Source: Candidatus Dactylopiibacterium carminicum (lineage in GTDB: Bacteria > Pseudomonadota > Gammaproteobacteria > Burkholderiales > Rhodocyclaceae). Taken from it: a stretch of 64,000 nt of DNA. The DNA lies in assembly GCF_014736495.1 (NCBI RefSeq), contig NZ_MDUX01000002.1:62001-126000 (forward strand). The letters are read 5' to 3'. The notes under the pieces were generated by a model. That model was not told where the DNA came from. It made no database searches and saw only the letters and a list, made by a program, of their open reading frames with translations. Both the position numbers and the translations under genes were made by a program. This document shows, piece after piece, positions 3,875 through 30,436 of the stretch; position 1 is the first letter of the stretch; each line of letters begins with the position of its first letter.

Positions 3875-3965
3875 GGCTCAGCGCCGTATTCCGGCCTGAT
3901 TTCCAGCGCCCCGTCATCCTACCCGGGGCTGGCGCGTTAGGCCGCCAAGCCTCTGGCGCACAAGT

Positions 3966-4006: not shown

Positions 4007-4061
4007 GCCGAGCCGGATACTTCATATTGCCGCACCAGTTTCCTGCCGGAGACGTAAATCC

Positions 4062-8400: not shown

Positions 8401-8439
8401 CTCACCGGCGCGGCGCCTGCAGGCGCCGCCGCGCCATGA
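5437..8439 (+). CDS. mdtB: RND efflux pump inner-membrane subunit, MdtB type, with apparent internal deletion
   Basis: 1000 residues, against about 1040 usual. It has the RND architecture: N-terminal [12 protein letters not shown], the proton-relay Asp pair in TM4 (D401-D402 in [14 protein letters not shown]), and the [16 protein letters not shown] motif near the C-terminus. It matches MdtB rather than MdtC in the sequence around SRTQYQ-like '[12 protein letters not shown]'. At about base 7289 'GRMLINL' runs straight into '[10 protein letters not shown]'. MdtB proteins have about 33 more residues here, in the periplasmic porter region. The missing length is a multiple of three, so the frame continues. 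Function of the pump is doubtful unless the deletion is an assembly error. It overlaps mdtC by 4 bases. Confidence 0.88.
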
Positions 8440-11400: not shown

Positions 11401-11471
11401 TCCGCCTGTGGTGCCACCGCTGGCGCCACGCAGCCCCAGCCCGGCCCGAAGCCACGGGAGTCCGCCCATGA
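8436..11471 (+). CDS. mdtC: RND efflux pump inner-membrane subunit, MdtC type, with two apparent internal deletions
   Basis: 1011 residues. The TM4 Asp pair is at D389-D390 in [13 protein letters not shown], and the C-terminal [16 protein letters not shown] motif is present. MdtB and MdtC form a mixed trimer in the characterised E. coli system. Compared with remembered MdtC sequences, about 12 residues are missing after 'LDRDIN' (near base 8740, before ASRSLLP) and about 10 residues at '[14 protein letters not shown]' (near 11080), where a transmembrane helix start is shortened. Both keep frame. The start overlaps the end of mdtB (ATGA), and the stop overlaps the outer-membrane gene (ATGA). 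Confidence 0.87.
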
Positions 11472-12918
11472 ACAGGATCACCGCCTTTCCGCTGCTTGCC
11501 CTCTGCCTGCTCACGGCCTGTAAGGTCGGCCCGGACTACACCCGCCCCGATCTGCCGCTGCCCGCCGCGTTCAAGGAGAACCCGGCCTGGAAGCCTGCCG
11601 AACCGCGCGACGATGCACCGCGCGGGCGCTGGTGGACCGTCTTCGGCGACCCACAGCTGGATGCCCTGCTCAGCCAGGTGGCGGGCGCCAACCAGAGCGT
11701 GCAGGTGGCACTGGCGCAATTCCGGCAAGCCGACGCCGCCACAGCGCTGACGCGTGCCGACCTGTTCCCCGAAGTGGATGCCAGCGGCGGCGCAACACGA
11801 TCCCGCAGCAAGGACAAGCTGACGACCAATCACACGCTGGGCCTGTCAGCAAGCTGGGAGCCCGACCTCTGGGGGGCATCGCGCGGAGCGTGGAAGCCGG
11901 CGAAGCGAGTACTGCAGCCAGCCTCGCCACGCTGGCCTCGGCACGCCTGTCAGCCGAAGCCAGCCTGGCGCAAAACTATTTCCTGCTGCGCGTGGCTGAC
12001 GCCAGCGCCAATCTGCAGCGTGCGACGGTGCAGGCCTACCAGCGCGCCTTGCAGATCACCGAAAATCAACTCAAGGCCGGCATCGTGACCCGGGCTGACG
12101 TAGCCCAGGCGAAAACCCAGCTGCACAACGCCGAAGTCACGCTGACCGATCTCGCGGTCTCCCGCGCCCAGTATGAGCATGCGATCGCGATCCTGATCGG
12201 CAAGGCACCGGCGGATTTCTCGCTCGCACCAGCCACGCTGCCCGAAACGCTGCCCTCCGTGCCCGCCCTGCTGCCGGCAGACCTGCTGGAACGCCGGCCG
12301 GACGTGGCCGCTGCCGAACGCAAGATGGCCGCCGCCAACGCACAGATCGGCGTAGCCCGGGCAGCCTGGTTTCCCAGCCTCAAGCTGACGGCCGGGAGCA
12401 GCCTGCAGAACACCGACCTCACGGAATGGCTGAATGCCCCCAGCCGCGTCTGGTCGCTCGGCGCCACACTGGCCGAAACCCTGTTCGATGGCGGACAACG
12501 CACGGCCAAGGATCGCCAGACCCATGCGGCCTACGACATCACCGTCGCCCAATACCGGCAGACCGTGCTCGGCGCGCTGCAGGAAGTCGAAGACAATCTC
12601 GTCGCACTGCGCGTGCTCGCCGACGAGGCCCGACAGCAAGCCACCGCACTGGCCGCTGCACGTGAAGCCGAGCGCCTCATGCTCAACCGCTACAAGGCCG
12701 GCACCGTGAGCTACACCAGTGTGGTGAGCACCCAGGCCACCGCCAACAGCAGTGAACGCAATGCCCTGCAGATCCTCGCCCGTCGCTATACCGCCTCGGT
12801 ACTGCTGATCAAGGCGCTCGGGGGCGGCTGGCAAGGGCTGACGCAGGAATCCCCGCCGCTGGCATTCCGCCAGCCCCGGGAAAAACCGATGCCCGCCCCC
12901 GACGGACATCCGTCATGA
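11468..12918 (+). pseudogene. Outer-membrane efflux factor (NodT/OprM family), single-base frameshift
   Basis: The first 136 or so codons give a lipoprotein signal peptide (LLALCLLTACKVGPDYTRP, lipobox Cys) and the first coiled-coil half, ending 'LGLSASWEPDLWG'. The frame then changes at the six-G run 11871-11876, and the rest ('IARSVEAGEASTAASLATLAS' onward, about 345 codons) is in another frame. Restoring one base gives a protein of about 483 residues, the normal length of RND outer-membrane channels. So this is one gene broken by loss of one nucleotide or by a sequencing error. It is the last gene of the mdt operon and would supply the exit duct. Confidence 0.85.
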
Positions 12919-13154: not shown

Positions 13155-13913
13155 TTACGGAGCCGCCTCTTCCGCAGTTTCTGCGCGCCGCAGGCTGCGA
13201 AAAGCACCCAACTCCCACTGCCGGAATGCCAGCACGAAGCCTACGCCGTGCCGTTTGTGCAACGGCACGGCGAGGCTTTCCTCGTGCAGCTCCGCCAGCT
13301 TCGCGCGGACCCTGCGGGCTTCTTCGTGCAAGCGCCCGAGCGCGGACTCCGTCAGCATGCCGTGGGCGAAGGCGAAGTATTCGTCCTCGCCGCCGAAACC
13401 GCCGTCGAAGAAGTCGCCCAGGCCGTTGCGGGCGAAGAAGCCGCGGATGGGGCCATGAGGCAGCCAGTCGAAGTCGCGGGTGACGTTCAGGCGCACACGG
13501 TTGCCGGGCAGCACATCAAGCAGGCGCAGTTTGTCCAGCCGCAGCAGCAGCGAGATCACTTCCGCCTCGCTCAACGCGTAGTTGGCCATGATGTCCTGCA
13601 CGCGCCATTGGTTGAGCGTACACACCGCCACCAGCAACAGCTTCGGGTTGGAAACCAGTTCGGTTTCCTGCGTCGCGTCCAGCGTGCGAATCCGGCGCTC
13701 CTGCTCGGCGGCTTCCTGCGCCAGCTCGGCGATGCTCACACCGAGCAGGTTGGCCACCGCCATCAGGCGGTCCAGCGTCATGCGCTTGATGGAGAACATC
13801 CGCTTGACGCTGGCCTCAGCCAGCCCGAGCGCCACCGCCACGTCTCGGTAGGTCAGCCCCTGTTGCCGCAGCATGCGCTTGGCGCAGTCGATCAGCTTGC
13901 TCGCCTCATCCAT
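13155..13913 (-). CDS. XRE-type helix-turn-helix regulator with C-terminal effector-like domain
   Basis: 252 residues. Residues 8-65 form a lambda-repressor-like HTH ('LTYRDVAVALGLAEASVKRMFS', here LTYRDVAVALGL and EASVKRMFS). The remaining about 185 residues have no domain I recognise. They contain a winged-helix-like stretch ('LLLRLDKLRLLDVLPGNRVRL') and many Gly-Phe pairs ('GFFARNGLGDFFDGGFGGE'). It diverges from the YiiX-like gene, with a 116-base gap, and may regulate that gene and aas-lplT. It is the first gene inside the repeat-bounded segment. Confidence 0.7.
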   Translation of the reverse strand: MDEASKLIDCAKRMLRQQGLTYRDVAVALGLAEASVKRMFSIKRMTLDRLMAVANLLGVSIAELAQEAAEQERRIRTLDATQETELVSNPKLLLVAVCTLNQWRVQDIMANYALSEAEVISLLLRLDKLRLLDVLPGNRVRLNVTRDFDWLPHGPIRGFFARNGLGDFFDGGFGGEDEYFAFAHGMLTESALGRLHEEARRVRAKLAELHEESLAVPLHKRHGVGFVLAFRQWELGAFRSLRRAETAEEAAP

Positions 13914-14029
13914 ATTGGTATCGTTTTTCTATACCTTTGATGCACAAATCCTAAACATCTCCGGCATTCATTGCAAACAGGGATACCTGAATGAAAACTG
14001 GGCCACCTTCATTCACGGAGATCCCTCGC

Positions 14030-14713
14030 ATGTCACATATCCGCTTTCTCCTGGCCCTGATGAGTCTCACGCTGGGGCTGTCGGCCGCTCCGGTACTGGC
14101 TACCCCTGCCGCTGCCGCTGCCGATGGCACTTTTGCCGATACCCCGCTGGCTGCGCCTGCCGTAGATAGCATCCGCATCGGCGATCTCATCTTCATCCAC
14201 GTCACACCTCTGCCCTTCGAGAAGGTTTCGCAAGCCACGGGAAGCTGGACCAATCACGTCGGCATCGTGGTCGATGTCGTGGAGGGCGAGCCGGTGGTGG
14301 CGGAAAGCACCTTTCCACGTTCGAAGATGACGCGGTTTTCCGCCTTCGTCGCCCGCTCGGCCGAAGGCCGGTACGCCGTCAGGCGTCTCAACGCGCCGCT
14401 GGACGACACCATGCGCCAAGGGCTGCTGGAAGCCAGTCGGAAGCGGATGGGCATCTTCTATGACACGGGGTTCAACCTGGATTCCTCGCGCCAGTTCTGC
14501 TCGCGCTTCGTGCATGAAGTGCTGCAGGAAGCCATCGGCGTGCAGGTGGGGGAAAGCGAGACCTTCCGTGAGCTGCTGGCCCGAAATCCGGAAACAGAGC
14601 TGGGCTTCTGGCGTGCCTGGTACTTCGGCTTCATTCCCTGGGAGCGGACGACGATCACGCCCGCCAGCCTCTATCACAGCCCGACGCTGATCACCGTAAC
14701 CACGGCAGAGTAA
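14030..14713 (+). CDS. YiiX/YebB-like permuted NlpC/P60 family cysteine hydrolase, secreted
   Basis: 227 residues. ATG 14030 was chosen over 13991 because GGAG lies at 14017-14020 and the protein then begins with a clean signal peptide (MSHIRFLLALMSLTLGLSA...LATPAAAA). The mature part has the permuted papain-like order: His in 'WTNHVGIVVDVVEG' and later the nucleophile Cys in 'RQFCSRFVHEVLQEA'. Families of this type (YiiX) act on amide or thioester/ester bonds of lipid or cell-wall substrates. The location is periplasmic. Only 31 bases separate it from aas, so it is probably co-transcribed; this suggests a link to lipid or envelope recycling, which is inference. Confidence 0.72.
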   Translation: MSHIRFLLALMSLTLGLSAAPVLATPAAAAADGTFADTPLAAPAVDSIRIGDLIFIHVTPLPFEKVSQATGSWTNHVGIVVDVVEGEPVVAESTFPRSKMTRFSAFVARSAEGRYAVRRLNAPLDDTMRQGLLEASRKRMGIFYDTGFNLDSSRQFCSRFVHEVLQEAIGVQVGESETFRELLARNPETELGFWRAWYFGFIPWERTTITPASLYHSPTLITVTTAE

Positions 14714-14744
14714 GCCCAACGCCATGAATCAAGGGAGATTTCTC

Positions 14745-16886
14745 ATGCGCAGCTTCATCAAGGCCGTGCTCGCCGTCATCCTCAAATGCCTGTTCCGCGT
14801 CCGCCTCAAGGGCGGCCAGAAAGGCCTGGACGCCCGCCGCCTGCTCATCATCGCCAATCACGAATCACTGCTCGACGGTTTGCTGCTGGGCGTCTTCCTG
14901 CTGATCGATCCAGTGTTCGTGGTGCATACCGGGGTGGCCCGCAGCCGCCTCTATCGCCTGATCCTCACGCTGGTCGACCACCTCACCGTAGACCCGAGCA
15001 GCCCGATGGCCATGAAGGCGGTAATCCGTCTGATCGAATCCGGCCGGCCGGTGATGATATTCCCCGAGGGGCGCATCACCGTGACCGGCTCACTGATGAA
15101 GGTGTATGACGGCCCGGCCTTCATCGCCGCACGCACTGGCGCCACGATCCTGCCGGTGCGCCTGGACGGCCCGGCGCGCTCCTTCTTCTCGCGCATGCCG
15201 GGCCGTGCAGACCGCCGACTCTTCCCGCGCATCACCCTCACGCAACTGCCGCCCACCACGCTGCCGATGCCCACCGGCGCCACCGCGCGCGAACGCCGCC
15301 GCGAGGCCGGCGAGGGCATGCGCCGGTTGATGCAGCGGATGCTCTTCGCCTCGCGCGAACGCCGCACGCTGTACGCCGGGCTGGTCGACGCCATGCACCG
15401 CTTCGGCCGCCGCCGCCCCATCGTGGAGGATCTCAAGCAGATCGAATACACCTATGGCGATCTGCTGAAGATGACGCTCGGGCTCGGCCGCCTGGTGAGC
15501 CGGCATTCCGCGCCCGGTGAAAACGTGGGCATCCTGATGCCCAATCTGGCCGCCACGCTGGGCATGATCATCGGCACTGGCGCCACCGGCCGCGTGCCCG
15601 CGCTGCTCAACTACAAGGCCGGCGTGCGGGGCATGCAGGATGCCTGCACGGCCGCCGGCATCCGCACGGTGTTCGCCTCGCGCGCCTTCGTGCAGCAGTC
15701 GAAGATCGAACAGGACGTGGCCGCGCTAAGCGACCTGCGCGTGCTGTACCTGGAAGACCTGCGCCCCACGCTGACGCTGGCCGACCGCCTGTGGATCCTG
15801 AAGGGCATACTGCTGCCCCGCACGGTGGAGCGCCAGCGCGATCCGTCGCACCCGGCGGTGCTGCTGTTCACCTCCGGCTCGGAGGGCAAGCCCAAGGGCG
15901 TGGCGCTCTCGCATGACGCGCTGATGGCCAACATCGAGCAGATCCGCGCCGTGATCGGCTTCACCCCCGACGACAAGATGCTCAACGCGCTGCCGGTGTT
16001 CCATTCCTTCGGCCTCACCGCCGGCGCGCTGTTGCCGGTGATGACCGGCATGAACCTCTTCCTCTACGCCACGCCGCTGCATTACCGCGTCATCCCGGAG
16101 ATCGCCTACGACCGCAACTGCACGGTGCTCTTCGGCACCAGCACCTTCCTCGCCAACTACGCGAAATTCGCCCATCCCTACGATTTCTTCCATCTGCGCT
16201 ACGTGGTGGCCGGCGCCGAGAAGCTGGCCGACCCGGTGCGCGAGCTGTGGCTGGAGAAGTTCGGCATCCGCATCCTGGAAGGCTACGGCGCCACCGAGAC
16301 CGCGCCGGTGCTGGCGGTGAACACGCCGCTGGCCTACCGCTCGGGCAGTGTGGGGCAGTTCCTGCCGGCCATCGAGCACCGCCTGGTGAAGGTGCCCGGC
16401 ATCGAGCGCGGCGGCATGCTGCACGTGCGCGGGCCGAACCTGATGTCCGGCTACTACCGCTTCGAGGCGCCCGGCCGCCTGCAGCCGCCGGCTTCCAGCC
16501 AGGGCGAAGGCTGGTACGAAACCGGCGACATCGCCGACGTCGATGAGGACGGCTTCGTCTCCATCGTCGGCCGCGTCAAGCGCTTCGCCAAGGTGGCCGG
16601 TGAAATGGTGTCGCTCGAAGTCGTCGAGCATCTGGCCGCGCAGGCCTCGGCCAGCGCCCTGCACGGTGCCACCACGCGGCCGGACGGCGCACGCGGCGAA
16701 AGCATCGTGCTGTTCACCACCGACGCGAGTCTCACCCGCGAACGCCTGTCGGACGCCGCACGCAGCCTCGGCATCCCCGAGATCGCCGTGCCGCGCAGCC
16801 TCCGGCCGCTGGCGGCGCTGCCCCTGCTCGGCACCGGCAAGATCGATCACGTCACCCTCAAGCACCTGGCGGAGGCCATCGCATGA
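14745..16886 (+). CDS. aas: Bifunctional 2-acyl-glycerophosphoethanolamine acyltransferase / acyl-ACP synthetase
   Basis: 713 residues, against 719 in E. coli Aas, and similar throughout. The N-terminal PlsC-like acyltransferase has NHESLLDG (HX4D) and FPEGRIT motifs. The C-terminal AMP-forming ligase has LLFTSGSEGKPKG, the EGYGATETAPV motif and 'YETGDIADVDEDGFV'. ATG 14745 is preferred to 14724 because GGGAG at 14733-14737 is well placed and it aligns with the E. coli start. Aas re-acylates lysophosphatidylethanolamine at the inner membrane using fatty acid activated on ACP. The next gene is its usual partner lplT, overlapping by 4 bases; in E. coli the order is lplT-aas. Confidence 0.93.
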   Translation: MRSFIKAVLAVILKCLFRVRLKGGQKGLDARRLLIIANHESLLDGLLLGVFLLIDPVFVVHTGVARSRLYRLILTLVDHLTVDPSSPMAMKAVIRLIESGRPVMIFPEGRITVTGSLMKVYDGPAFIAARTGATILPVRLDGPARSFFSRMPGRADRRLFPRITLTQLPPTTLPMPTGATARERRREAGEGMRRLMQRMLFASRERRTLYAGLVDAMHRFGRRRPIVEDLKQIEYTYGDLLKMTLGLGRLVSRHSAPGENVGILMPNLAATLGMIIGTGATGRVPALLNYKAGVRGMQDACTAAGIRTVFASRAFVQQSKIEQDVAALSDLRVLYLEDLRPTLTLADRLWILKGILLPRTVERQRDPSHPAVLLFTSGSEGKPKGVALSHDALMANIEQIRAVIGFTPDDKMLNALPVFHSFGLTAGALLPVMTGMNLFLYATPLHYRVIPEIAYDRNCTVLFGTSTFLANYAKFAHPYDFFHLRYVVAGAEKLADPVRELWLEKFGIRILEGYGATETAPVLAVNTPLAYRSGSVGQFLPAIEHRLVKVPGIERGGMLHVRGPNLMSGYYRFEAPGRLQPPASSQGEGWYETGDIADVDEDGFVSIVGRVKRFAKVAGEMVSLEVVEHLAAQASASALHGATTRPDGARGESIVLFTTDASLTRERLSDAARSLGIPEIAVPRSLRPLAALPLLGTGKIDHVTLKHLAEAIA

Positions 16887-18118
16887 ATACCCGCACCCTG
16901 AATCTCCCGCTCGCCTCCACCGGCATGTTTGCCGTGCTCGGCGCGCAGTTCTTCTCCGCGCTGGCGGACAACGCCATCCTCATCGTCGCCATCGCCCTCG
17001 TGAAGGCCCGGGGCGCCGGCGAGATGGCGCCCTTGCTGCAAGGCGCCTTCGTGCTGCCCTTCATCCTGCTCGCGCCCTTCGTCGGCCAGATCGCGGATGG
17101 TTTTCCGAAAGGCCGCGTGATGCTTGCCGCCAATGCGTTCAAGCTCATCGGCGCGGTGCTGATAGCCTGCGGCATCCAGCCCATCCTCGGCTACGGGCTG
17201 ATCGGCGTGGGCGCGGCCGTGTATTCGCCGGCCAAGTACGGCATCCTCTCGCAGATGTTCGCGGCGGACCGCCTGGTGCGCGCCAACGGCATGCTCGAAG
17301 GCTCCACCATCGCCGCCATCCTGCTGGGCTTGCTGCTCGGCGGCTGGCTGGCCGACCATTCGATGGCCTGGGCGTTCGCCGGCGTCATCGGCGCCTACGC
17401 GCTGGCGGCGGCTATCAACCTGCTCATCCCGCGCCTGGCGCCGGAAAACCCCGCCCCCACCTTCGCGCCGCGCGCACTCATCCGCCGCTTCGGCCAAGCC
17501 CTGCGCACGCTCATGCGCGACCCCGACGCCCGCTTCAGCATGCTCGGCACCAGCGTGTTCTGGGGCTGCGGCAGCACGCTGCGCCTGATGCTGTTCGCCT
17601 GGGTGCCGGTGGCCCTGACGATCCAGGACAACCAGACGCCGGCCAACCTCATGGGCGTGGTGTCCATCGGCATCGTCGCCGGTGCCGCCATCGCCGCCGG
17701 TGCCGCCATCGCCGCCGGCTGCATCTCGCTCGACAAGGTGAACCGCAGCCTGATCGGCGGCCTGCTGATCAGCCCCATCGTGCTCTGCCTGGCCCACATC
17801 AACCAGTTGCTGCCCGCCTCGCTGCTCATGGCCACGATCGGCGTCTGCGGCGGGATCTTCGTGGTGCCGCTGAATGCCCTGCTGCAACAGCGCGGGCACG
17901 AATCGGTGGGCGCCGGCAACGCGCTGGCGGTGCAGAACTCCATGGAGAACACCGTCATGCTGCTGTTCGTTGGCGCATACTCGCTGGCCAACCGGGCCGA
18001 CCTTGCGGTGGGTACGGCAATGACCGGTTTTGGCCTGCTGCTGTCGGTGTCCATCCTCCTGCTGGCTCTGGCACGTCTGGCCCGTGGCAAGGCAACGATG
18101 GCCCGGAGCCGTTGCTGA
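16883..18118 (+). CDS. lplT: Lysophospholipid transporter LplT (MFS)
   Basis: 411 residues with about 12 hydrophobic segments and LplT-like text: 'FFSALADNAILIVAIALVK' at the start, PFVGQIADGFPKGRVM in loop 2-3, and 'VPLNALLQQRGHESVGAGNA'. LplT flips lysophosphatidylethanolamine across the inner membrane for Aas, and its ATG overlaps the aas stop (ATGA). An 18-base tandem duplication (17681-17716) adds six residues (GAAIAA repeated) in a transmembrane helix. The gene lies inside the repeat-bounded segment. Confidence 0.92.
   Translation: MNTRTLNLPLASTGMFAVLGAQFFSALADNAILIVAIALVKARGAGEMAPLLQGAFVLPFILLAPFVGQIADGFPKGRVMLAANAFKLIGAVLIACGIQPILGYGLIGVGAAVYSPAKYGILSQMFAADRLVRANGMLEGSTIAAILLGLLLGGWLADHSMAWAFAGVIGAYALAAAINLLIPRLAPENPAPTFAPRALIRRFGQALRTLMRDPDARFSMLGTSVFWGCGSTLRLMLFAWVPVALTIQDNQTPANLMGVVSIGIVAGAAIAAGAAIAAGCISLDKVNRSLIGGLLISPIVLCLAHINQLLPASLLMATIGVCGGIFVVPLNALLQQRGHESVGAGNALAVQNSMENTVMLLFVGAYSLANRADLAVGTAMTGFGLLLSVSILLLALARLARGKATMARSRC
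17681..17716 (+). repeat. 18-bp tandem duplication inside lplT
   Basis: The unit GGTGCCGCCATCGCCGCC occurs twice head to tail and encodes GAAIAA twice. It keeps frame and lies in a membrane helix. It is typical of replication slippage and could vary in copy number between strains. Confidence 0.9.
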
Positions 18119-18198: not shown

Positions 18199-19188
18199 AT
18201 GACCTTGCACCAGCACCGTTCGCGCGCCGTCAGCCTGCTCGGCACCGGCCACGCGCTTCCCTCCGTCGTGATGACCAGCACCGACCTGGACCGCACGCTC
18301 AACCACGCCCCCGGCACCATCGAACGCCTCAGCGGCGTACGCGTGCGGCATTTCGCCCGGCGTGATGAAACGGCGGCCATGCTGGCCGCGGCCGCCGCCA
18401 GCCTGGCGCTGGCGGACATCGATTGCCTGGTCGCGGCCAGCGGCACACAGGATTAGGGCCTGCCGCACAACGCCGCGCTCATCCACCGGGAACTCGGCCT
18501 GCCGGCAGACGTTCCGGCCTTCGACATCAACGCTTCCTGCCTGGGCTTTCTGACCGCGCTGGACACGCTGGCGTGGCCCATCGTCGCCGGCCGCTACCGG
18601 CACGTTCTCATCGTGGCGGCAGACATCGCCTCCTGCGGCCTGGACTGGAGCAAGCTGGAGGCCAGCGCCATCTTCGGCGACGGCGCGGCAGCGGCCGTGG
18701 TCGGTACGGCGCCTGCCGGAGCCTCCCGTCTGCTTGCGGCCGAACACCAGACTTTCTCCGAAGGCGTAGCCCTGTGCCGCATCCCCGGCGGTGGCAGCCG
18801 CTACCATCCGACCCGCATCAATCAGCCCTTCGAGCCACTGGCCCGCTTCCACATGGACGGCAAGGGCGTGTTCAGGCTGGCGGCGCAGCATCTGCCGGCA
18901 TTCGTCGCGCGGCTGCTGGTCCGCGCCGGCCTGCGCCTGGAACAGATCGACTGGATCGTGCCGCATCAGGCCAGCCAGTTGGCCCTGACGCATCTGGGCC
19001 GCCGCCTTGGCTTCGCCCGGAACAAGTTCATCGACGTCTTCGCCGACCACGGCAATCAGGTGGCCGCCTCGCTGCCCACGGCGCTCGACATCGCCATCCG
19101 CGATGGCCGCATCCAGCGCGGGCAGCGGGTGCTGCTGCTGGGCACGGGGGCCGGCCTGGCCGTCGGCGGCATGATCTTGGAGTACTGA
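18199..19188 (+). pseudogene. KAS III / OleA-like ketoacyl synthase with in-frame amber codon
   Basis: One frame from ATG 18199 to TGA 19188 is interrupted only by TAG at 18454-18456, between 'AASGTQD' and 'GLPHNAAL'. CAG (Gln) is the likely ancestral codon, one transition away. Downstream all three thiolase-fold residues are present: Cys in DINASCLGF, His in VPHQAS and Asn in DHGNQVAAS. The region around 18380-18410 (AAMLAAAAASLALADID) looks about 8-10 residues shorter than typical FabH, suggesting another small in-frame loss. The protein would condense an acyl-CoA or acyl-ACP with a second acyl chain. Its stop overlaps the ATG of the reductase gene. It may be inactivated recently, read through, or mis-sequenced. 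Confidence 0.82.
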
Positions 19189-20189
19189 TGAAGATCGTCA
19201 TTACCGGAGGCACGGGCTTCCTCGGGCGCCACCTGGTCTGGCGTGCGGCCGCCGAAGGCGCGCAGGTCATCTTCACCGGCCGCGACGCCAGCGCCGCCCG
19301 CGAAGTGATCGATCACGCCCCTGCGGGCGCCGTCCGCTGGCAGGCCGTGGCGCACGGCGAGGCCGACGCCCAGGCTACGCTCACCGACATCGCCCACGAT
19401 GCCGACGCCCTCGTGCACTGCGCGGCCCTGTCCGCCCCCTGGGGCCGGCGCGAGGCCTTCCATCGCGCCAACGTCCTCGGCACGGCGGAGGTCATCGCTG
19501 CCTGCCAGGCCAATGCGGTGCCGCGCCTGGTTCACATTTCCACCCCCAGCGTGTACTTCGGCTTCGCTGACCGCCTGAGGATCAACGAAGACGCGTCATT
19601 GCCGACGCCCGCCAACGAGTACGTGCGCACCAAGCTGGCCGCCGAAGCGCTGGTGCGCAAGGCGGTGCTGCCTTCGGCGGCCATCCTGCGGCCGCGCGCC
19701 CTGCACGGTCCCTGGGATCAGGCACTGGTGCCGCGGCTGCTGCGCGTGATGCGCCGCGGCCCCATCCCCATCATGCGAGGCACGGACATCCAGCTGGACC
19801 TGACCTACATCGACAACGCCGTGGACGCCGTCTGGCTGGCGCTGACCCGACCATTGCCACGCCCGCTCAGCGTCTACAACGTCAGCAACGGCCAGCCGGC
19901 CACGCTGGGCGCGCTGCTGGAAGCCATCGCCCGGGAATTCGGCCTGCCCCTGCGCACGCGCGTGCTGCCCTGGCCGGTGGCGGCACTGGTGGCGCGCGGG
20001 CTGGAAGCCACGGCCCGCCTGGGGCGCGGCAAGGAGCCGCTGATCACGCGCTACAGCGCCGGCGTGCTGGCGTTCAGCCAGACGCTGGATGTCTCGCGTC
20101 TGCGCAACGAACTGGGCTGGCAGGCATCGGTTTCGACGGAAGAAGGCATCCAGCGCCATGCCCGCTGGTGGAAGGCCCGGCAAACATGA
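19188..20189 (+). CDS. NAD(P)-dependent epimerase/3-beta-HSD family reductase, OleD-like
   Basis: 333 residues of an extended short-chain dehydrogenase. The Rossmann motif TGGTGFLG is at residues 6-13, the active-site Ser is in 'HISTPSVYFG', and Tyr and Lys are in YVRTK. The segments 'VHCAALSAPWGRREAFHRANVLGT' (in parts: HCAALSAPWG, FHRANVLGT) and DLTYIDNAVDAV resemble OleD, the 2-alkyl-3-ketoalkanoate reductase of olefin/beta-lactone clusters. ATG 19188 shares one base with the KAS III stop, so the two are translationally coupled. It probably reduces the product of the KAS III enzyme; this is inference. Confidence 0.82.
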   Translation: MKIVITGGTGFLGRHLVWRAAAEGAQVIFTGRDASAAREVIDHAPAGAVRWQAVAHGEADAQATLTDIAHDADALVHCAALSAPWGRREAFHRANVLGTAEVIAACQANAVPRLVHISTPSVYFGFADRLRINEDASLPTPANEYVRTKLAAEALVRKAVLPSAAILRPRALHGPWDQALVPRLLRVMRRGPIPIMRGTDIQLDLTYIDNAVDAVWLALTRPLPRPLSVYNVSNGQPATLGALLEAIAREFGLPLRTRVLPWPVAALVARGLEATARLGRGKEPLITRYSAGVLAFSQTLDVSRLRNELGWQASVSTEEGIQRHARWWKARQT

Positions 20190-21034
20190 CCCGCGTCAGC
20201 CTGGAGGTGTTACGCGTGGGCGCCTGCCGCCATCTGGAATGCATGGCGGCGCGCGGCGGCCGCTGGCGCCTGGTGGACTTCCCCGCCCTGTGCGGCCTGA
20301 TCCGCCACCCCACGCGGGGCTGGCTGCTCTACGACACGGGCTATGCCGATCACTTCTTCACCGCCACGGCAGGCTGGCCAGAGCGGCTTTACCGCACGGC
20401 ACTGCCCGTGGAACTACCCACGAACGAAATCCTGGGCACCCAGCTGGCGGCATGGAATCTACGCCTCGCGGACATCGGCACACTCATCGTGTCGCACTAC
20501 CACGGTGACCACATCGCGGGCCTGCGCGATTTTCCCGCCGCGCGCTTCATCGCCCTGCAGGCGGATTCCGCGCCTTTCATGGCGCTCAGGGGCAAGCGCT
20601 GGCGGGCCACCCTCGGCGGCCACCTGCCCGGCCTGCTGCCCGACGACTATGCCAGCCGCCTCACGTTCGCCGAAACCTGCCCGCTGCGCGACCTGCCCGG
20701 CTGGCTGGCCCCCTTCACGCAAGGATTCGATCTGCTCGGCGACGGCAGCCTGCTCGGGGTGCCCCTGCCCGGGCACAGCCACGGCCAGCTCGGACTTTTC
20801 ATGCCGGATGCCGATGGCCGGCCGGTCTTCCTGATTGCGGACGCCTGCTGGTCGCTGCCTGCGCTGCGCGAAGGGCGCCCGCCCGCGTTCCCGGCGATGC
20901 TCCTCAGCGCCGAGCGCCAACGCTTCCACCACACCTTCAACGCGCTGGCCGGCCTGGCCGCGCGCGAACCGGCCATCGCCCTGCTGCCCTCGCACTGCCC
21001 GGCAGCCTGGCAGGAGTACCAGAATGAACGCTGA
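20186..21034 (+). CDS. Metallo-beta-lactamase-fold hydrolase
   Basis: 282 residues. The zinc-binding motif HxHxDH appears as SHYHGDHIAG, a further His is in 'LPGHSHGQLGL', and a metal-bridging Asp is probably in 'LIADACWS'. The N-terminal layout (DFPALCGLIRHP...LLYDTGYADHF) resembles lactonase-like members that open or cleave esters and lactones. There is no signal peptide, so it is cytoplasmic. It overlaps the reductase gene by 4 bases (ATGA) and the next gene by 11. In the Ole-like reading of this cluster it would take the hydrolase position. Confidence 0.8.
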   Translation: MTRVSLEVLRVGACRHLECMAARGGRWRLVDFPALCGLIRHPTRGWLLYDTGYADHFFTATAGWPERLYRTALPVELPTNEILGTQLAAWNLRLADIGTLIVSHYHGDHIAGLRDFPAARFIALQADSAPFMALRGKRWRATLGGHLPGLLPDDYASRLTFAETCPLRDLPGWLAPFTQGFDLLGDGSLLGVPLPGHSHGQLGLFMPDADGRPVFLIADACWSLPALREGRPPAFPAMLLSAERQRFHHTFNALAGLAAREPAIALLPSHCPAAWQEYQNER

Positions 21035-22301
21035 TGCATTGATCATGGCGGCGCATTTCGCGCATACCCGCTGGCGGCTGGCCTTCGACGACAGGCAGAA
21101 GCTGGAGGACTGGCAGCAGGCGCGCCTGCAACGCTTCCTGCGCGAAACGCTGCCGCGCGCGAGTGCTTTCCGCCATGCCGGATACGAACGGCTGAGCGAT
21201 CTTCCCATGATGGATAAGGCTTCGATGATGGCGGCATTCGACGCCTACAACACCCGGGGCATCCTGCTCGACGAAGCCTTGCCGATCGCGATGCAGGCGG
21301 AGCGCTCGCGGGACTTCGAGCCGACCTTGGGCCAGGGCAGCCGGGCGCTGACGGTGGGGCTTTCCAGCGGCACTTCCGGCAATCGCGGCGTGTTTCTCGT
21401 CAGCAAGGCCGAACGGCTGCGCATCGCCTTCTTCCTGCGCGCCAACAGCAATCTGTACACCACGCTCAACAGCCGGCGCATCGATTTCGCATTCCACGAC
21501 CTGCTGGAAGGCATCGAACCGGCATTGCCACGGCTAAACGCGAACAGGCCCGACGTGCTGGTCGGCCCGCCTTCACTGCTGCGCGCGTTGGCCACCGAAG
21601 CGGCCGCAGGGCGGCTCCACATCCAGCCCGCGCACATCATCTCGGTGGCCGAAGTGCTCGAGGATGACGACCGGGGAGCCATCCAGGCCAGTTTCGGGCA
21701 GGCGCCCCATCAGCTCTATCAGGCGACCGAAGGCCTCCTGGGCTACACCTGCGAGCATGGCTGCGTGCATCTGAACGAAAGCTTCGTGCACATCGAGCCG
21801 GACTGGCTCGACGAGGCACGCACCCGATTCCAGCCCATCGTGACCGACTTCACCCGGCAGACGCAGTTGATCGTGCGCTACCGCCTCAACGACGTGCTAC
21901 GCGTGTGCGACGCGCCCTGCCCCTGCGGCCGCGCCGAACGGGCCATCGCCGCCATCGAAGGGCGCAGCGATGAAGTTCTCTGGCTGCCCGCGCTGGCCGA
22001 CGGCCGCGCGACACCGGTATTCCCGGACTTTCTGCGCCGTGCCATGCTGTTTGCCGGTACGACGGTGCGCGAGTACCGCATCGTCCAGGCCGGCATGCGG
22101 CTGGACATCGCGCTGCAGATCCCGGGCGATCGTCCGCAGGCCATCCAGCGCGTAAGCCACGAACTGGCCGGCCTGTGGCAGGCCCTTGGGCTGCAAGCCC
22201 CCGCGCTGAACTTCAACGACTGGCAGGCACCGGCAGCAGGCGTGAAACGCCGCCGGGTGGAACGCCGGCAGGCGCCCCCGGGGCTCGCATGCACGTTCTG
22301 A
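21024..22301 (+). CDS. F390 synthetase-related adenylate-forming enzyme
   Basis: 425 residues. The phosphate-binding loop LSSGTSGNRGVFL replaces the usual TSGTTGxPKG, as in coenzyme F390 synthetase and phenylacetate-CoA ligase relatives. Other family marks are 'DVLVGPPSLLRALA', 'LYQATEGLLGYTCEHG' and a Cys cluster CDAPCPCGRAE. The family is often called putative adenylate-forming enzyme; the substrate is not known. ATG 21024 overlaps the hydrolase stop by 11 bases. It probably activates a carboxylic acid made by the preceding enzymes, which is inference from the context. Confidence 0.8.
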   Translation: MNADALIMAAHFAHTRWRLAFDDRQKLEDWQQARLQRFLRETLPRASAFRHAGYERLSDLPMMDKASMMAAFDAYNTRGILLDEALPIAMQAERSRDFEPTLGQGSRALTVGLSSGTSGNRGVFLVSKAERLRIAFFLRANSNLYTTLNSRRIDFAFHDLLEGIEPALPRLNANRPDVLVGPPSLLRALATEAAAGRLHIQPAHIISVAEVLEDDDRGAIQASFGQAPHQLYQATEGLLGYTCEHGCVHLNESFVHIEPDWLDEARTRFQPIVTDFTRQTQLIVRYRLNDVLRVCDAPCPCGRAERAIAAIEGRSDEVLWLPALADGRATPVFPDFLRRAMLFAGTTVREYRIVQAGMRLDIALQIPGDRPQAIQRVSHELAGLWQALGLQAPALNFNDWQAPAAGVKRRRVERRQAPPGLACTF

Positions 22302-23101
22302 TCCTCGGTGCCCGCGCGCCGGCCAGTCTCGAATGGGCACGCGCCTTCCATGCCGCAGGCTGGCGGGTCACGGCCGGGGACAGCCTACGCTGGCCGCTGA
22401 CGCGTTTTTCCAGCGCGGTCGATGCCTGGCTTCCTCTGCCGTCGCCCCGGCGGGCTCCTTCGGCCTGGATCGAAACGCTGCGGCAGGTGGTCCAGCAGCG
22501 ACACATCGACCTCGTGCTGCCCACCTGTGAAGAGGTCTTCTATCTCGCGCACGGTCGTGACCGGATTCCGGCACGCGTGCTGGTGCCGGACTTCGATCTC
22601 CTGCACGAGTTGCACCACAAGGGGCGTTTCGCCGCGCAGGTCCGGGGCTGGAGTGTGGAAGCACCCGAAACGTATCTGCTCTCCAGCCGCGAAGAACTTC
22701 ATGCGTTCATGGCCGGACACGATCCTCGGTCCTGGGTATTCAAGCCGACGTACTCCCGCTTTGCCAGCCACACGCTGATCCGCCCGGACGCCAGCGCCTT
22801 GGCTCGCCTGAGCCCCACACCGGCCCAGCCCTGGGTGGCCCAGCACCATGTCAGTGGCCGGGAATGCTGCAGCTACAGCCTGCTGGTGGAGGGCCGCCTG
22901 ACGGCGCATACCTGCTACCGCCCCCGCCATCGTGCGGGCCGTGGCGCGGGGATCTGGTTCGAGCCGGTCCGGCCTGCACCCGTGCAGGCCTTTGTCGAGC
23001 ACTTCGGCCGCCAGACAGGCTACACGGGCCAGGTCGCCTTCGATTTCATCGAGCACGCCGACGGCCGCTGCCACGTCATCGAATGCAACCCGCGCGCCAC
23101 T
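22289..23101 (+). pseudogene. ATP-grasp enzyme, C-terminally truncated at the repeat junction
   Basis: About 271 residues remain. There is a Rossmann-like preATP-grasp start 'HVLILGARAPASLEWARAF', the ATP-binding 'WVFKPTYSRFASHT', and 'TGQVAFDFIEHADGRCHVIECNPRATS' (here GQVAFDFIEH and VIECNPRATS), the metal-binding E..N motif of carbamoyl-phosphate-synthase-like ATP-grasp proteins. Coding similarity stops exactly where the nfsB stop codon begins (23102). The frame continues antisense through nfsB to 23911, giving an open frame of 541 codons. The last 100 or more residues of the enzyme are gone. It starts 13 bases inside the adenylating enzyme gene, so it belonged to that operon. It would have ligated an acid to an amine or similar group. 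Confidence 0.8.
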
Positions 23102-23236
23102 TCAGATCCGGCTGATGACCCGATCGACCGGCAGGCGGGATTTGGGCAGCTTGGCGTTGAAATCCTCGCCGCCGCTGTAGCCCAGCGCCACGATCACCAC
23201 GCTGGTCAGCCCTCGGGCGCGCAGGCCGAGTTCCTC
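23102..23236 (-). repeat. 135-bp direct repeat, right copy: 3' end of intact nfsB
   Basis: This matches 12939-13073 in the same orientation with one visible difference. It begins at the stop codon of nfsB and covers its last 44 codons. Recombination between the two copies would remove 10,163 bases and leave nfsB facing the efflux operon. Confidence 0.9.
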
Positions 23237-23755
23237 GTCGAGCACGGTCGCATCGAAGCCTTCGATGGGGCAGGCATCCACATCCAGCGCGGCAGCGCCG
23301 AGCAGCAGGGTGCCGACGGCGATGTAGACCTGCTTCTCCATCCAGTGCTGGGCGTCCTTGCGGTCGAAGCGGTGCAGGTTGACGTAATAGCCACGCCCCT
23401 TGAGCTGGCCGGCCTTGGCCTCGGCGTTGGCGATGCGGCCATCCACCTCTTCCTGATCGATCACGGCGGCGAGATGCGCGTCGTCGAAATCCTGGCGCGC
23501 GCAGAAAACCACCACATACGAGGCATTCAGGATCTTCGGTGCGTTGTAGGCCGTGGAGCCATAGGTCGCTTTGGCGACACGCGCCTTGCCTTCATCCGAG
23601 CCGGCCACCACGAAATGCCAGGGCTGGGAATTGATGGACGAAGGCGAGAAACGCAGCAGCTCTTCCAGCTCGGCGACAGCCTCCGCCGGGATCTTCCGGG
23701 TCGGGTGGAAAGCCTTGGTGGCACGCCGTTGATGGACGATTTCCGAGATCTTCAT
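23102..23755 (-). CDS. nfsB: Oxygen-insensitive NAD(P)H nitroreductase, NfsB family
   Basis: 217 residues, the same length as E. coli NfsB and similar throughout: RRATKAF, the FMN-binding 'SPSSINSQPWHFVVAGSDEGKARVAK' (here SSINSQPWHF and EGKARVAK), VDQEEVDGR, and the C-terminal 'FNAKLPKSRLP'. ATG 23755 has AGGAG just upstream on this strand. The FMN-dependent cytoplasmic enzyme reduces nitroaromatics and quinones. Its 3' end is duplicated at 12939-13073, and its stop codon directly abuts the broken ATP-grasp gene, so the gene marks the edge of an inserted or rearranged segment. Confidence 0.93.
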   Translation of the reverse strand: MKISEIVHQRRATKAFHPTRKIPAEAVAELEELLRFSPSSINSQPWHFVVAGSDEGKARVAKATYGSTAYNAPKILNASYVVVFCARQDFDDAHLAAVIDQEEVDGRIANAEAKAGQLKGRGYYVNLHRFDRKDAQHWMEKQVYIAVGTLLLGAAALDVDACPIEGFDATVLDEELGLRARGLTSVVIVALGYSGGEDFNAKLPKSRLPVDRVISRI

Positions 23756-23934
23756 GAAACGACTCCTTGTAGGGGTGAAAACCTGGCGACGATCTTGCCA
23801 CGCCGGCCCCCGCCAGCGCCGGATACTTGCGCGGGAGTTGCAGGGCGTCAAACCACCGGAGTGCCCCTTTTCCATGAATCGCGCCCCGAAGATAAGGCTA
23901 CCGCCGGGTAATGCCATGCATTTCGGACATTCTC

Positions 23935-26316: not shown

Positions 26317-28513
26317 ATGGAAATCAAGGTCAACTTCCTCGACAAACTGCGTCTCGAAGCCAGGTTCGACGACTTCACGGTCATCGCCGACCAGCCCATC
26401 CGCTACAAGGGCGATGGCTCAGCGCCGGGGCCTTTCGATTACTTTCTGGCTTCATCCGCCCTGTGTGCCGCGTACTTCGTGAAGCTGTACTGCGACACCC
26501 GCAGTATTCCCACCGAGAACATCCGCCTTTCGCACAACAACATCGTCGATCCGCACGACCGCTACAAACAGATCTTCAAGATCCAGATCGAGTTGCCGGC
26601 GGATATCTCCGCCAAGGACCGCCAGGGCATCCTGCGCTCCATCGAGCGTTGCACAGTGATAAAGGGTGGTGCAGACCGGGCCGGATTTCGTGATCGAGGA
26701 AGTGGAGAATCTGGATGCCGACGCCCAGGCCCTGCTCACGCTGAATCCGGATGCGGAAACCAGCACCTACATCACCGGCAAGGATCTGCCGCTGGAGCAG
26801 ACCATCGCCAACATGTCCGGCTTTCTGGCAGGCCTGGGCATCAAGATCGAAATCGCCTCGTGGCGCAATCTGGTGCCCAATGTATGGTCGCTGCATATCC
26901 GCGACGCGCATTCGCCGATGTGCTTCACCAACGGCAAGGGCGCAACCAAGGAAAGCGCGCTAGCATCCGCCCTGGGCGAATATATCGAGCGCCTGAACTG
27001 CAACCATTTCTACAACGACCAGTTCTGGGGCGAAGACATCGCCAATGCGCCGTTCGTGCATTACCCGAGCGAGCGCTGGTTCAAGCCGGGCCGGAAAGAT
27101 GCGCTGCCGAAGGAAATCCTCGACGAATACTGTCTGGCGATTTACAACGCCGACGGCGAGCTGCGTGGCTCGCATCTGTTCGACACCAATTCCGGCAACG
27201 TGCAGCGCGGCATCTGTGCGCTGCCCTATGTGCGCCAGTCGGACGGCGAGGTGGTGTATTTCCCGACCAATCTGATCGACAACCTTTTTCTCAGCAACGG
27301 CATGAGCGCCGGCAACACGCTGGCCGAGGCGCAGGTGCAATGCCTGTCGGAGATTTTCGAGCGCGCGGTAAAACGCGAAATCCTCGAAGGCGAAATCACT
27401 CTGCCGGGTGTGCCGCAAGAAGTGCTGGCGAAATACCCCGGCATTCTGGCCGGCATCGAAGAGCTTGAGAAACAGGGCTTCCCGGTACTGGTGAAAGACG
27501 CGTCACTGGGCGGGCAATTTCCCGTGATGTGCGTCACCTTGATGAACCCGCGCACAGGTGGCGTGTTTGCCTCGTTCGGCGCGCATCCCAGCCTGGAGGT
27601 GGCACTGGAGCGCAGCCTGACCGAATTGCTGCAAGGGCGCAGCTTCGAAGGCCTAAACGATCTGCCCCGCCCCACCTTCGAGAGCAACGCGGTGACGGAG
27701 CCGAACAACTTCGTCGAGCACTTCATCGACTCCAGCGGCGTGGTGTCCTGGCGCTTTTTCAGCGCCAAAGCGGATTTCGGCTTCGTTGAATGGGATTTCA
27801 CCAGCCAGGCTGAAAACGCCAACGCCGAGGAAGCCGCGGCCCTGTTCGGCATTCTCGAAGGCATGGGCAAAGAAGTTTACGTGGCGGTGTATGACCAATT
27901 GGGCGCCACGGCCTGCCGCATCCTGGTGCCAGGGTATTCGGAAATCTACCCGGTGGAAGACCTGATCTGGGACAACACCAACAAGGCGCTGCAATTCCGC
28001 GCCGACATCCTGAACCTGCATCGCCTGGACGACGCCAGCCTGGAAGCGCTGCTCGAACGCCTGGAAGACAGCGAGCTGGACGATTACACCGACATCATCA
28101 CCCTGATCGGCATCGAATTCGATGAAAACACGGCCTGGGGTCAGCTGACGATTCTGGAACTGAAACTCCTGATCCGCCTCGCCCTGCAGCAATTCGAAGA
28201 AACCAAAGAACTGGTGGAAGCCTACCTGCAATACAACGAAAACACGGTCGAACGCGGCTTGTTCTATCAGGCCTTGAATGCGGTGCTGGAAGTGCTACTG
28301 GACGATGAGCTGGAGCTCGACGATTACATCGTCAATTTCCGCCGCATGTTTGGCGACCCGCGCATGGATGCGGTGATGGGGTCCGTAGACGGCAGCGTGC
28401 GCTTCTTCGGCTTGACGCCCACGAGCATGAAACTCGAAGGTCTCGACAGACACCAGCGCCTGATCGACAGCTACAGGAAACTGTACACGGCGCGGGCCAA
28501 GGCGGCGAGCTGA
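26317..28513 (+). pseudogene. ycaO: OsmC domain/YcaO domain fusion protein, single-base frameshift
   Basis: Bases 26317-26660 encode an OsmC-like domain ('FDYFLASSALCAAYFVKLYC', ending ERCTVIK). From 26666 a second frame encodes a YcaO domain of about 615 residues ('VWSLHIRDAHSPMCFTNGKGATKESA', in parts SLHIRDAHSP and FTNGKGATKESALASALGEY) very like E. coli YcaO, which aids RimO in methylthiolating ribosomal protein S12. Removing one G from the GGG at 26664-26666 joins both into 731 residues, the known size of OsmC-YcaO fusions. It is a +1 insertion, real or a sequencing error. A GTG at 26666 could start YcaO alone, but without a clear ribosome site. YcaO ATP-binding and Pro-rich tail features were not checked. 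Confidence 0.85.
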
Positions 28514-29167: not shown

Positions 29168-30078
29168 CTAGACAGCCCCGAGCTTCATGAAATACTGTTT
29201 TTCATAGTCTATCGGAGACATGCCATTTGCGTGGCTGTGTCGCCGTTTCGGGTTGTAGAACATCTCGATGTAATCGAACACGTCACGGCGGGCATCCTCG
29301 CGTGTTGGATAGATTTTGCGTTTGATCCGCTCGCGCTTGAGCAGCTGGAAGAAACTTTCTGCGACTGCGTTGTCGTGGCAGTTTCCTCGGCGACTCATGC
29401 TGCCCTTGAGCTTGTTGGCGCGCAGGAACGACTGCCAATCGTCGCTGCTGAACTGGCTGCCCTGATCCGAATGAACCATGACCTCCTGCGTCGGCTTGCG
29501 GTGCCAGACGGCCATCAGCAAGGCGTTCAGTGCGAGGTCTGCCGTCATCTGAGCACTCATCGACCAGCCCACGACCTGTCGCGAGAACAGATCCAGGACT
29601 GCCGCCAAAAACAGCCAGCCCTCATGCGTGCGGATGTACGTAATGTCAGTCACCCAGACCTTGTTCGGTTCGCTCACGTCGAACTCGCGCTGAAGATGGT
29701 TCGGTGACACGTTGGCAGGACAGCCCCCCCCGTAGCGGCCCGGCCGACGCCCATAGCCCGTCAGGGACTTGAGGCCGATCTGGCGCATCAGCCGAGCAAC
29801 ACGATGCTTGCCGCAGGATTCGCCCAGATCGCGCAGGTCATGCGTGATCTTACGGTAACCATACACGGCACCACTTTCCAGCCAGCACTGCTTGATCAGG
29901 CCTTCAATGCGCTGATCTTCCAGGGCACGTGCAGACAGCGGCTGGGCTTGTGCCAGGCGTAGTACCCACTCGGATGGACCCGCATGACCTTGCACATGCG
30001 TCGGATTGGCCAGACGTTCTGATGCGCTTCGATGAAGGCGTACCTTACCCGGACTGCTTGGCAAAGTACGCTGTGGCC
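29168..30078 (-). pseudogene. IS3-family transposase OrfB, frameshifted
   Basis: The DDE residues are present: D in VTDITYIRTHEGWLF, D in HSDQGSQFSSDDW and E in 'CHDNAVAESFFQLLKRE'. After the expected -1 shift, translation gives 'RYAFIEAHQNVWPIRRMC' and 'VHPSGYYAW', but the frame then has to change again near 29950-29956 to read LAQAQPLSARALEDQR and the rest. This extra frame change is not part of the IS3 mechanism. So the full OrfAB transposase cannot be made, and the copy is probably immobile by itself. Confidence 0.75.
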
Positions 30079-30323
30079 TTTTTTAGGATGTCGCGCTCCT
30101 CGGTTACCCGCTTGAGCTCGGCTCGTAGCCGACGTAACTCGTCCTCTTGGCTATCCTGCGTTTGACGCTCCTGCGGCGTCAGGCTGTAGCGCTTGATCCA
30201 TGCGTACAGACTGTAAATGCTCACATCCAGTCGCCCGGCAACGTCCGCAACGCTATGTCCGCGATCGGTCACTTGCTTGACCGCTTCAATCTTGAACTCT
30301 TCCGTGTATCGCTTGCTACTCAT
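30045..30323 (-). CDS. IS3-family transposase OrfA
   Basis: 92 residues. The helix-turn-helix start is 'SKRYTEEFKIEAVKQVTDRG', followed by a leucine-zipper-like helix (ELRRLRAELKRVTEERDILKKA). ATG 30323 has GGAGG 4 bases upstream on this strand. It ends 'FAKQSG' after the A6G slippery sequence in LKKAT, where ribosomes would slip by -1 into orfB. It binds the IS ends as part of OrfAB. Confidence 0.88.
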   Translation of the reverse strand: MSSKRYTEEFKIEAVKQVTDRGHSVADVAGRLDVSIYSLYAWIKRYSLTPQERQTQDSQEDELRRLRAELKRVTEERDILKKATAYFAKQSG

Positions 30324-30436
30324 AGACACCTCCACTTGGTTGCCAGCTTAAGGCTTCGAAGTGTCTAGTGAACCGGGGGCGATTCAAGGCAAAGAGTCGA
30401 ATGGCTCCTTTGGCCGAGATCCGGGCGCTAAAGGGT

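Follow-up and report, generated by a model that had tools for sequence, protein, structure and literature searches.

The described systems that most resemble the gene cluster studied here are the OleABCD clusters and the ketosynthases MxnB and CorB of the myxopyronin and corallopyronin pathways. Ole clusters bring together a thiolase-fold condensing enzyme, an extended short-chain dehydrogenase/reductase (SDR) of the OleD type, an AMP-forming enzyme and a hydrolase; we take OleB to be an alpha/beta hydrolase and OleC to belong to the AMP-binding (PF00501-type) family. According to sections of PMC4578411, a glutamate that is required by OleA and PpyS is replaced by Val94 in MxnB and CorB, and sections of PMC5724707 place MxnB in a type I polyketide synthase (PKS) pathway. 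The locus that we compared with these systems consists of five genes at positions 18199–23101 of a 64,000-nucleotide stretch of Candidatus Dactylopiibacterium carminicum (contig NZ_MDUX01000002.1, positions 62,001 to 126,000), hereafter the window; the host genome assembly comprises 3.59 Mb in 122 contigs and is 99.3% complete. We read the locus, with a probability of roughly 55%, as a decayed copy of a widespread, uncharacterised biosynthetic cluster for a lipid-like metabolite, the biosynthetic and lipid-like nature being suggested by the enzyme families.

Results

The five genes and their families

The cluster encodes a ketoacyl synthase III (KAS III), an SDR, a hydrolase of the metallo-beta-lactamase (MBL) fold that resembles N-acyl homoserine lactone (AHL) lactonases, an adenylating enzyme related to coenzyme F390 synthetase, and an ATP-grasp ligase:

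18199..19188, + strand: KAS III, frame broken by a TAG stop at 18454-18456; PRK07204 is its best curated match
19188..20189, + strand: extended SDR of the OleD/NSDHL type, Ser118, Tyr145 and Lys149 kept
20186..21034, + strand: MBL-fold hydrolase of the AHL-lactonase type, H104, H106, D108, H109, H197, D219 and H270 conserved
21024..22301, + strand: F390-synthetase-related adenylating enzyme (TIGR02304, PaaK-like), with a 27-residue internal gap relative to close relatives
22289..23101, + strand: ATP-grasp ligase (PRK06849), truncated, only the 5' two thirds present

All five start with ATG, and consecutive genes overlap by 1, 4, 11 and 13 bases. An earlier reading made from the DNA letters without database searches (the sequence-only reading) had listed the same families in this order with overlaps of 1–13 bases, and the places and families of the genes were confirmed. 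It had also set the hydrolase and the adenylating enzyme apart from their Ole counterparts, and this holds. The Pfam family of the hydrolase is PF00753 (MBL), and in hmmscan the adenylating enzyme exceeds the curated cut-off of TIGR02304 (392.6 against 251.9 bits) and has no Pfam match, the AMP-binding family PF00501 included. OleD is the best NCBIfam match of the SDR in hmmscan, with 171 bits (cut-off 580). The two fragments of the KAS III reach 54.6 and 284.8 bits with PRK07204, and the intact homologue of Escherichia coli Nissle 1917 reaches 331 bits, all under the cut-off of 402. The ATP-grasp gene matches PRK06849 only partially, with 332 bits (cut-off 406) over model positions 5–277 of 389.

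Recurrence of the gene set

Named genomes were scanned with an alignment of the F390-type enzyme, and the best 80 of 583 confirmed stretches were combined with ten loci found first, giving 90 loci. These ten are the locus of the congener G003 and those of the nine TIGR02304-positive genomes other than the window's own. Seventy-nine of the 90 loci had enough flanking sequence to be counted; the remaining 11 were too short and did not enter the count. Neighbours were counted on the same strand within 6 kb, at low cut-offs (130 bits for KAS III, 150 for SDR, 90 for MBL and 200 for ATP-grasp), with profiles built from the window and loci L033–L042, so that a match is built in for those ten loci but not for the other 80.

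KAS III was found beside the F390-type gene in 76 of the 79 loci, SDR in 77, MBL in 76 and ATP-grasp in 62. As only the F390-type gene had been used to find the loci, a recurrence of the same neighbours in 76–77 of 79 exceeds chance. The order KAS III, ATP-grasp, SDR, MBL, F390-type predominates (40/79 loci, mainly Bacillota by record title); the order of the window, with ATP-grasp last, occurs in 15, the order KAS III, SDR, MBL, F390-type in 8, and the remaining 16 vary. Among the varying arrangements, the set is dispersed across about 14 kb in Pseudomonas Leaf58, and a Fusobacterium record has the order SDR, MBL, F390-type, KAS III. In all ten first loci the KAS III, SDR, MBL and F390-type genes are adjacent, and ATP-grasp accompanies them in six; in L038 and L039 it lies nearby on the opposite strand. 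In L041 (genome G110, 7982-8991) the SDR is split in two frames within an otherwise complete cluster, and the gene set may therefore be decaying elsewhere too. As a control, none of 18 weak PaaK-like loci (L005–L022) had KAS III, MBL or ATP-grasp and one gave a weak SDR match; this control is only a mild one, because its flanks spanned just 1.5 kb.

TIGR02304 is rare among 398 Pseudomonadota genomes, being matched at E ≤ 1e-40 in ten, seven of them above the cut-off. In the reverse direction, an alignment of the MBL enzyme matched 22 of the 398 genomes at E ≤ 1e-25; 11 scored at least 268 bits, with the next at 117, and all ten TIGR02304-positive genomes are among these 11. Six of the eleven (G000, G110, G190, G229, G280 and G427) had supplied rows of the alignment, and G115, G213, G353, G390 and G426 had supplied none; the last four nevertheless scored 268–368 bits. 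The proposal that the five families form a unit is thus upheld by co-occurrence across loci, as a recurrent set, with the qualification that the ATP-grasp gene is not in every version.

The closest relatives of the window's F390-type enzyme among the best 80 of 583 stretches, at 62–65% identity, are from Cupriavidus, an unclassified proteobacterial bin and Thiothrix, while the congener G003 carries a different version of the cluster, with an F390-type identity of 43–45%. With the nearest relatives in other genera and the version of the congener more distant, the sequence comparison suggests that the window copy was acquired by horizontal transfer.

Intact versions and partner genes

In E. coli the cluster comprises seven genes, in the order KAS III, SDR, MBL, F390-type, PAP2, fatty-acid hydroxylase and desaturase. 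The E. coli stretch was matched in 672 of 5,426 complete genomes, in 671 over at least 80% of its length. E. coli Nissle 1917 carries an intact seven-gene version that lacks ATP-grasp. The cluster lies directly behind narI in both E. coli records inspected, and in Nissle 1917 it is followed by tRNA-Tyr genes. Elsewhere the partners differ. The cluster is accompanied by ATP-grasp and GNAT genes on plasmids of Paenibacillus and Paraburkholderia and by a divergent sulfotransferase/TetR pair in Ketogulonicigenium and Paracoccus, and the Rhizobium cluster includes a gene of the DUF3419 family, which we take to be that of BtaA-type aminocarboxypropyl transferases. Glycosyltransferase-like genes were recognised by eye in 8 of the 90 loci (acidobacterial, gemmatimonad, cyanobacterial and one from Paenibacillus), and a Rieske-type gene occurs in 20, one representative of which was confirmed. 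Because the partner genes vary by lineage, a lipid-like scaffold with interchangeable polar decoration fits the data.

A sixth gene, often located 3' of ATP-grasp in the relatives, encodes a GNAT-like protein of about 385 residues and is present in 55 of the 90 loci. Its Pfam matches are weak or absent (in three members, 25.8 bits, 20.5 bits and no match, at a cut-off of 22), and sequence searches gave no significant relative in the PDB. An AlphaFold2 model (predicted local distance difference test score 95.7) has tRNA-dependent aminoacyl transferases as its best fold matches, with Sbb17/Sba18 (Z 17.3, root mean square deviation 3.5–3.6 over 261–264 aligned residues), FemX (Z 17.0, 4.3 over 290) and MprF (Z 16.7, 3.7 over 261) tied. 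The likeness to this group thus lies in the predicted fold, at Z 16.7–17.3, whereas sequence identity to the sixth protein is only 9–13%. In Psychromicrobium (L074) the ATP-grasp (residues 48–428) and the sixth protein (469–806) are naturally fused; this fusion and their adjacency elsewhere argue, at the level of gene organisation, that the two act on one product.

Literature searches under the family names and likely gene names, mostly of open-access articles and without preprints, gave no description of the cluster that we recognised among the matches listed, which is not proof of absence. Nor did a defined product come to light in the literature searched. An F390-synthetase-like gene is mentioned for D. 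psychrophila in a source whose main text does not include the words ATP-grasp or metallo (PMC2649909, in part). In P. syringae pv. actinidiae, a transposon mutant in a 'coenzyme F390 synthetase' gene, which may or may not belong to TIGR02304, has a virulence score of 2 in the sections of PMC9823363 concerned.

Relationships of the enzymes

The nearest solved relatives of the KAS III are MxnB (347 bits) and CorB (339 bits), followed by the FabH type (276 bits). Scores are 170 bits with the entry 'PQS biosynthetic enzyme' and about 117 bits with entries named '3-oxoacyl-[ACP] synthase III', which we identify as PqsD and OleA, respectively. A tree was computed from the window copy, 80 cluster sequences, MxnB, CorB and the FabH of the host genome, the last as its single outgroup. 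MxnB and CorB are nested among the cluster sequences in this tree, which has long branches, and the clade that joins them to 52 of these sequences has a support of 0.957. MxnB and CorB share with the cluster enzymes the Cys-His-Asn triad, a glutamine discussed below and the absence of a glutamate at the OleA site (sections of PMC4578411 and PMC5724707). MxnB differs in serving a PKS pathway, whereas the cluster KAS III stands beside SDR, MBL, F390-type and often ATP-grasp genes. At the position of the OleA glutamate, the 80 relatives have isoleucine (47), leucine (19) or methionine (14), and the window copy has leucine. The model PRK09258, presumably of the OleA type, scores 89 bits for the fragment in the window and 87 for the complete KAS III of Nissle, short of its cut-off of 285. 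Because the glutamate is replaced in 80 of 80, an OleA-type condensation is less likely, and by sequence a malonyl-type or MxnB-type condensation is the more likely one.

The SDR has relatives of the NSDHL and OleD types, and the Nissle SDR scores 154 bits with a Shewanella-type OleD model. The proposal that the first two enzymes are counterparts of OleA and OleD is therefore retained for the SDR, as far as a best match below cut-off goes, and not for the KAS III.

In sequence as well as in fold, AHL lactonases are the nearest relatives of the MBL enzyme: the first 26 rows of a Foldseek search are AHL lactonases or pyridoxolactonase, and both the lactonase fold and the seven metal-ligand positions of dinuclear MBL enzymes are present. 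The model of the lactonase AttM gives 57.2 bits, far under its cut-off of 390. PqsE has the MBL fold as well and acts on a beta-ketoacyl thioester. The cluster enzyme differs from it in scoring only 22 bits with the entry 'Quinolone signal response protein', presumably PqsE, compared with 96 bits for an AHL lactonase entry; a PqsE-like thioesterase is thus a weak candidate by sequence.

The adenylating enzyme belongs to the PaaK family and is a member of the NCBI family 'F390 synthetase-related protein' (TIGR02304), a model name that carries no assayed function; the Nissle homologue reaches 755.5 bits with it. The coenzyme F390 synthetase model itself, TIGR03335, gives 21.8 bits with the Nissle homologue (cut-off 458.7) and is absent from the matches of the window enzyme at E ≤ 0.001. 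The ATP-grasp protein is distantly related to carbamoyl-phosphate synthase and to AMdnB, which we take to be a microviridin-type ligase. That it is exclusive to the cluster is ruled out by family members elsewhere in G070 and G342; the one in G342 (L142, 9030-10184) lies beside carotenoid/photosynthesis-like genes (by eye), outside any KAS III cluster.

Lesions in the window copy

The TAG that interrupts the KAS III stands at codon 86, which is glutamine in 80 of 80 relatives and in MxnB and CorB. The frame is otherwise open, and the catalytic Cys, His and Asn, all downstream of the TAG, are kept. The F390-type enzyme lacks 27 residues relative to its close relatives L044 and L046, and about 20 relative to more distant ones, and the gap removes three columns conserved at ≥95%. 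In L046 the segment absent from the window gene is preceded by TTGCGC and has TTGCGG as its last bases, which by eye form a short repeat. The ATP-grasp gene ceases to match its homologues around residue 271 (of about 389), close to position 23100 and roughly three bases short of the stop codon of a convergent gene:

23102-23917, − strand: nitroreductase gene; the ATP-grasp frame continues as its antisense

Conserved catalytic residues were examined in 69–90 sequences per family. Apart from these lesions the window copy keeps the Cys-His-Asn triad of the KAS III and the Ser-Tyr-Lys set of the SDR. Seven ligand-type positions are likewise retained in the MBL hydrolase, and so is the C-terminal Lys in the adenylating enzyme; we assign the roles of all these residues from general knowledge of the folds.

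No second copy of the cluster was seen in the genome, which has a single F390 match and a single ATP-grasp match at E ≤ 1e-25; the sole other full-length KAS III-like match (251 bits) is FabH-like. In view of the lesions and of this absence, the pathway probably no longer operates in the genome as assembled, with assembly errors possible. The sequence-only reading had taken the KAS III for an open gene, 23101 for the end of the unit and the unit as working; instead, the TAG splits the frame, 23101 marks a break in homology and no gene end, and the assembled copy has three lesions.

Other genes of the contig show related irregularities. A resistance-nodulation-division (RND) transporter gene (8436-11471, + strand) lacks, in frame, stretches of 11 and 9 residues that are filled in four of five aligned relatives, the fifth aligned sequence being in a wrong frame, and has an additional 10-residue gap inside a variable linker. 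Together with the F390-type gap, the RND gaps suggest that small deletions have occurred repeatedly in this contig or that its assembly is faulty. By eye, an outer-membrane efflux (NodT-like) gene at 11408-12918 (+ strand) is split over two frames near 11850, and a YcaO-like gene with an OsmC-like start at 26317-28513 (+ strand) has a frameshift near 26690. Two overlapping IS3-type transposase-like frames, also recognised by eye, lie at 29168-30335 (− strand), about 6 kb past the cluster break.

Genomic surroundings

Upstream of the KAS III, the window holds a regulator gene followed by a + strand run:

13155..13913, − strand: Cro/C1-type helix-turn-helix (HTH) regulator (Pfam HTH_26/HTH_3), a candidate regulator of the cluster
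13991..14713, + strand: permuted papain-like amidase of the C92 family (YaeF/YiiX; PF05708, 123.3 bits)
14724..16886, + strand: Aas, acyl-ACP synthetase / lysophospholipid acyltransferase (PRK08043, 957.7 bits against a cut-off of 886)
16883..18118, + strand: LplT lysophospholipid transporter (PRK11195, 442.3 bits against a cut-off of 297)

Homologues of the regulator, 46–55% identical, are immediately upstream of the KAS III in four of the 90 loci (L033, L044, L045 and L055), which makes it a fair candidate regulator of the cluster; here the amidase, Aas and LplT genes sit in between. The amidase gene opens the run and ends 10 bases ahead of aas, and its membership in the pathway is uncertain. 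In the 90 related loci Aas has matches of 22–29% identity only and LplT one match of 27%. Without close homologues there, the two are ruled out as general members of the pathway; they may be partners in this genome only, supplying or recycling acyl chains. LplT is matched at E ≤ 1e-60 in two of the eight genomes of the genus, the present one included.

Discussion

The enzyme families could be joined into the following pathway, whose middle steps stand in a conjectural order. By extending or joining an acyl thioester, the KAS III, of the FabH/MxnB type, would produce a beta-ketoacyl chain, which the SDR would reduce. The MBL enzyme might then free the reduced chain from a thioester or lactone as a free acid, and the PaaK-like enzyme would adenylate this acid for coupling. 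A polar group specific to the lineage would follow: an amino acid through the ATP-grasp ligase and the FemX/MprF-like transferase, or alternatively sulfate, an aminocarboxypropyl group or a sugar. Other enzymes of individual lineages (fatty-acid hydroxylase, desaturase, Rieske enzyme) would modify the chain. The sequence-only reading had envisaged a condensed and reduced acyl product that is activated and perhaps joined to an amine. This outline agrees with the enzyme set, with the FemX/MprF-type fold and with the fusion of ATP-grasp and GNAT; a KAS III that corresponds to OleA is not supported. A bolder version, which we put forward tentatively and hold to be somewhat short of even odds, is that the cluster represents an unrecognised, widely traded lipid pathway that occurs in some E. 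coli and in Pseudomonas, Paenibacillus, cyanobacteria and Fusobacterium. One acyl scaffold would receive lineage-specific polar groups, and the resulting lipids, placed in the membrane or secreted, would form a new family.

Several observations weigh against a decayed biosynthetic cluster of this kind. G213 has KAS III, MBL and SDR genes without a detected F390-type gene (L140, 7395-13144), and plasmid pMPPla107 of P. amygdali has the F390-type and ATP-grasp genes, with the other three absent in the 15 kb examined. Two of eight strong matches to the ATP-grasp family (those in G070 and G342) lie in other surroundings. For the sixth protein, tandem GNAT proteins (VipF, Z 14.6; mycothiol synthase, 13.9) and N-myristoyltransferase (13.6) come next after the aminoacyl transferases, and a match of predicted folds alone is no proof of tRNA use; moreover, a search of this genome, run without a positive control, gave no match to the sixth gene. 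With AHL lactonases as its closest relatives, the MBL enzyme could possibly open a lactone or turn over a signal rather than release a thioester. Finally, given the RND gaps on the same contig, the breaks in the cluster may in part be assembly artefacts. The G213 locus also includes glycosyltransferase-like genes, by eye.

An OleABCD-like route, in which a beta-keto acid from the KAS III is reduced by the SDR and closed to a beta-lactone by the F390-type enzyme in the role of OleC, and the MBL enzyme opens or decarboxylates the lactone in the manner of OleB, would draw on four functional counterparts, on the OleD type as best curated match of the SDR and on the grouping of the MBL enzyme with lactonases. 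We nevertheless regard it as quite unlikely: the OleA-type and OleD models stay below their cut-offs, and an olefin would not call for the polar decorating enzymes that are additionally present in relatives of the cluster. Membership in the OleABCD family proper is rejected on account of the missing OleA glutamate (role from sections of PMC4578411), the PF00753 hydrolase in place of an alpha/beta hydrolase, and the TIGR02304 adenylating enzyme without Pfam match in place of OleC. Turning to the closest solved relatives, the KAS III might instead work like MxnB and CorB and condense a pair of beta-ketoacyl chains to an alpha-pyrone or another lactone, with the SDR and MBL enzymes reducing and opening the product to a signal or antibiotic. 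The lead of 347/339 over 276 bits, the nested position in the tree, the shared family-invariant glutamine and the hydrophobic residue at the glutamate site all speak for this route, as do LuxI-like and LuxR-like genes upstream of an intact cluster in a genome of the same class (L034, G280, 2745-4113, by eye). These genes were noticed at L034 alone, the tree has the limits given above, and no PKS assembly line appeared in the neighbourhoods read by eye, without a systematic search; to our knowledge MxnB and CorB clusters have no such SDR, MBL or F390 set. On balance this route is rather unlikely.

Acyl catabolism or quorum quenching, in which the MBL enzyme would serve as AHL lactonase and the acyl chain that it releases would pass to the ligase and SDR, has the kinship to AHL lactonases in sequence and fold on its side. 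It is very unlikely, as lactonase models remain far below their cut-offs (57 of 390 bits) and the KAS III, aminoacyl-transferase-like, ATP-grasp, sulfotransferase and glycosyltransferase-like partners point to synthesis. A different doubt concerns the decay itself. The window copy would be functional if the TAG were a sequencing error or read through, the short F390-type enzyme active and the ATP-grasp fragment dispensable. The otherwise open KAS III frame with its catalytic residues, the occurrence of clusters without detected ATP-grasp, and the small gaps or (by eye) frameshifts of other contig genes, potentially assembly errors, are consistent with this. Three separate lesions among five genes make it unlikely, however, the more so as the TAG falls on a residue invariant in 80 of 80, the deletion takes three columns conserved at ≥95% and the ATP-grasp break abuts an unrelated gene.

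We thus favour a decayed copy of an otherwise conserved pathway, and the interest of the finding rests on the intact family more than on the window copy. The pathway is carried by many environmental and host-associated bacteria, including the probiotic E. coli Nissle 1917. Should a new polar lipid or signal prove to be its product, this would matter for the chemistry of the envelope and for contact with hosts, and the broken copy in Candidatus Dactylopiibacterium carminicum would mark a lineage that has ceased, or is ceasing, to make it.

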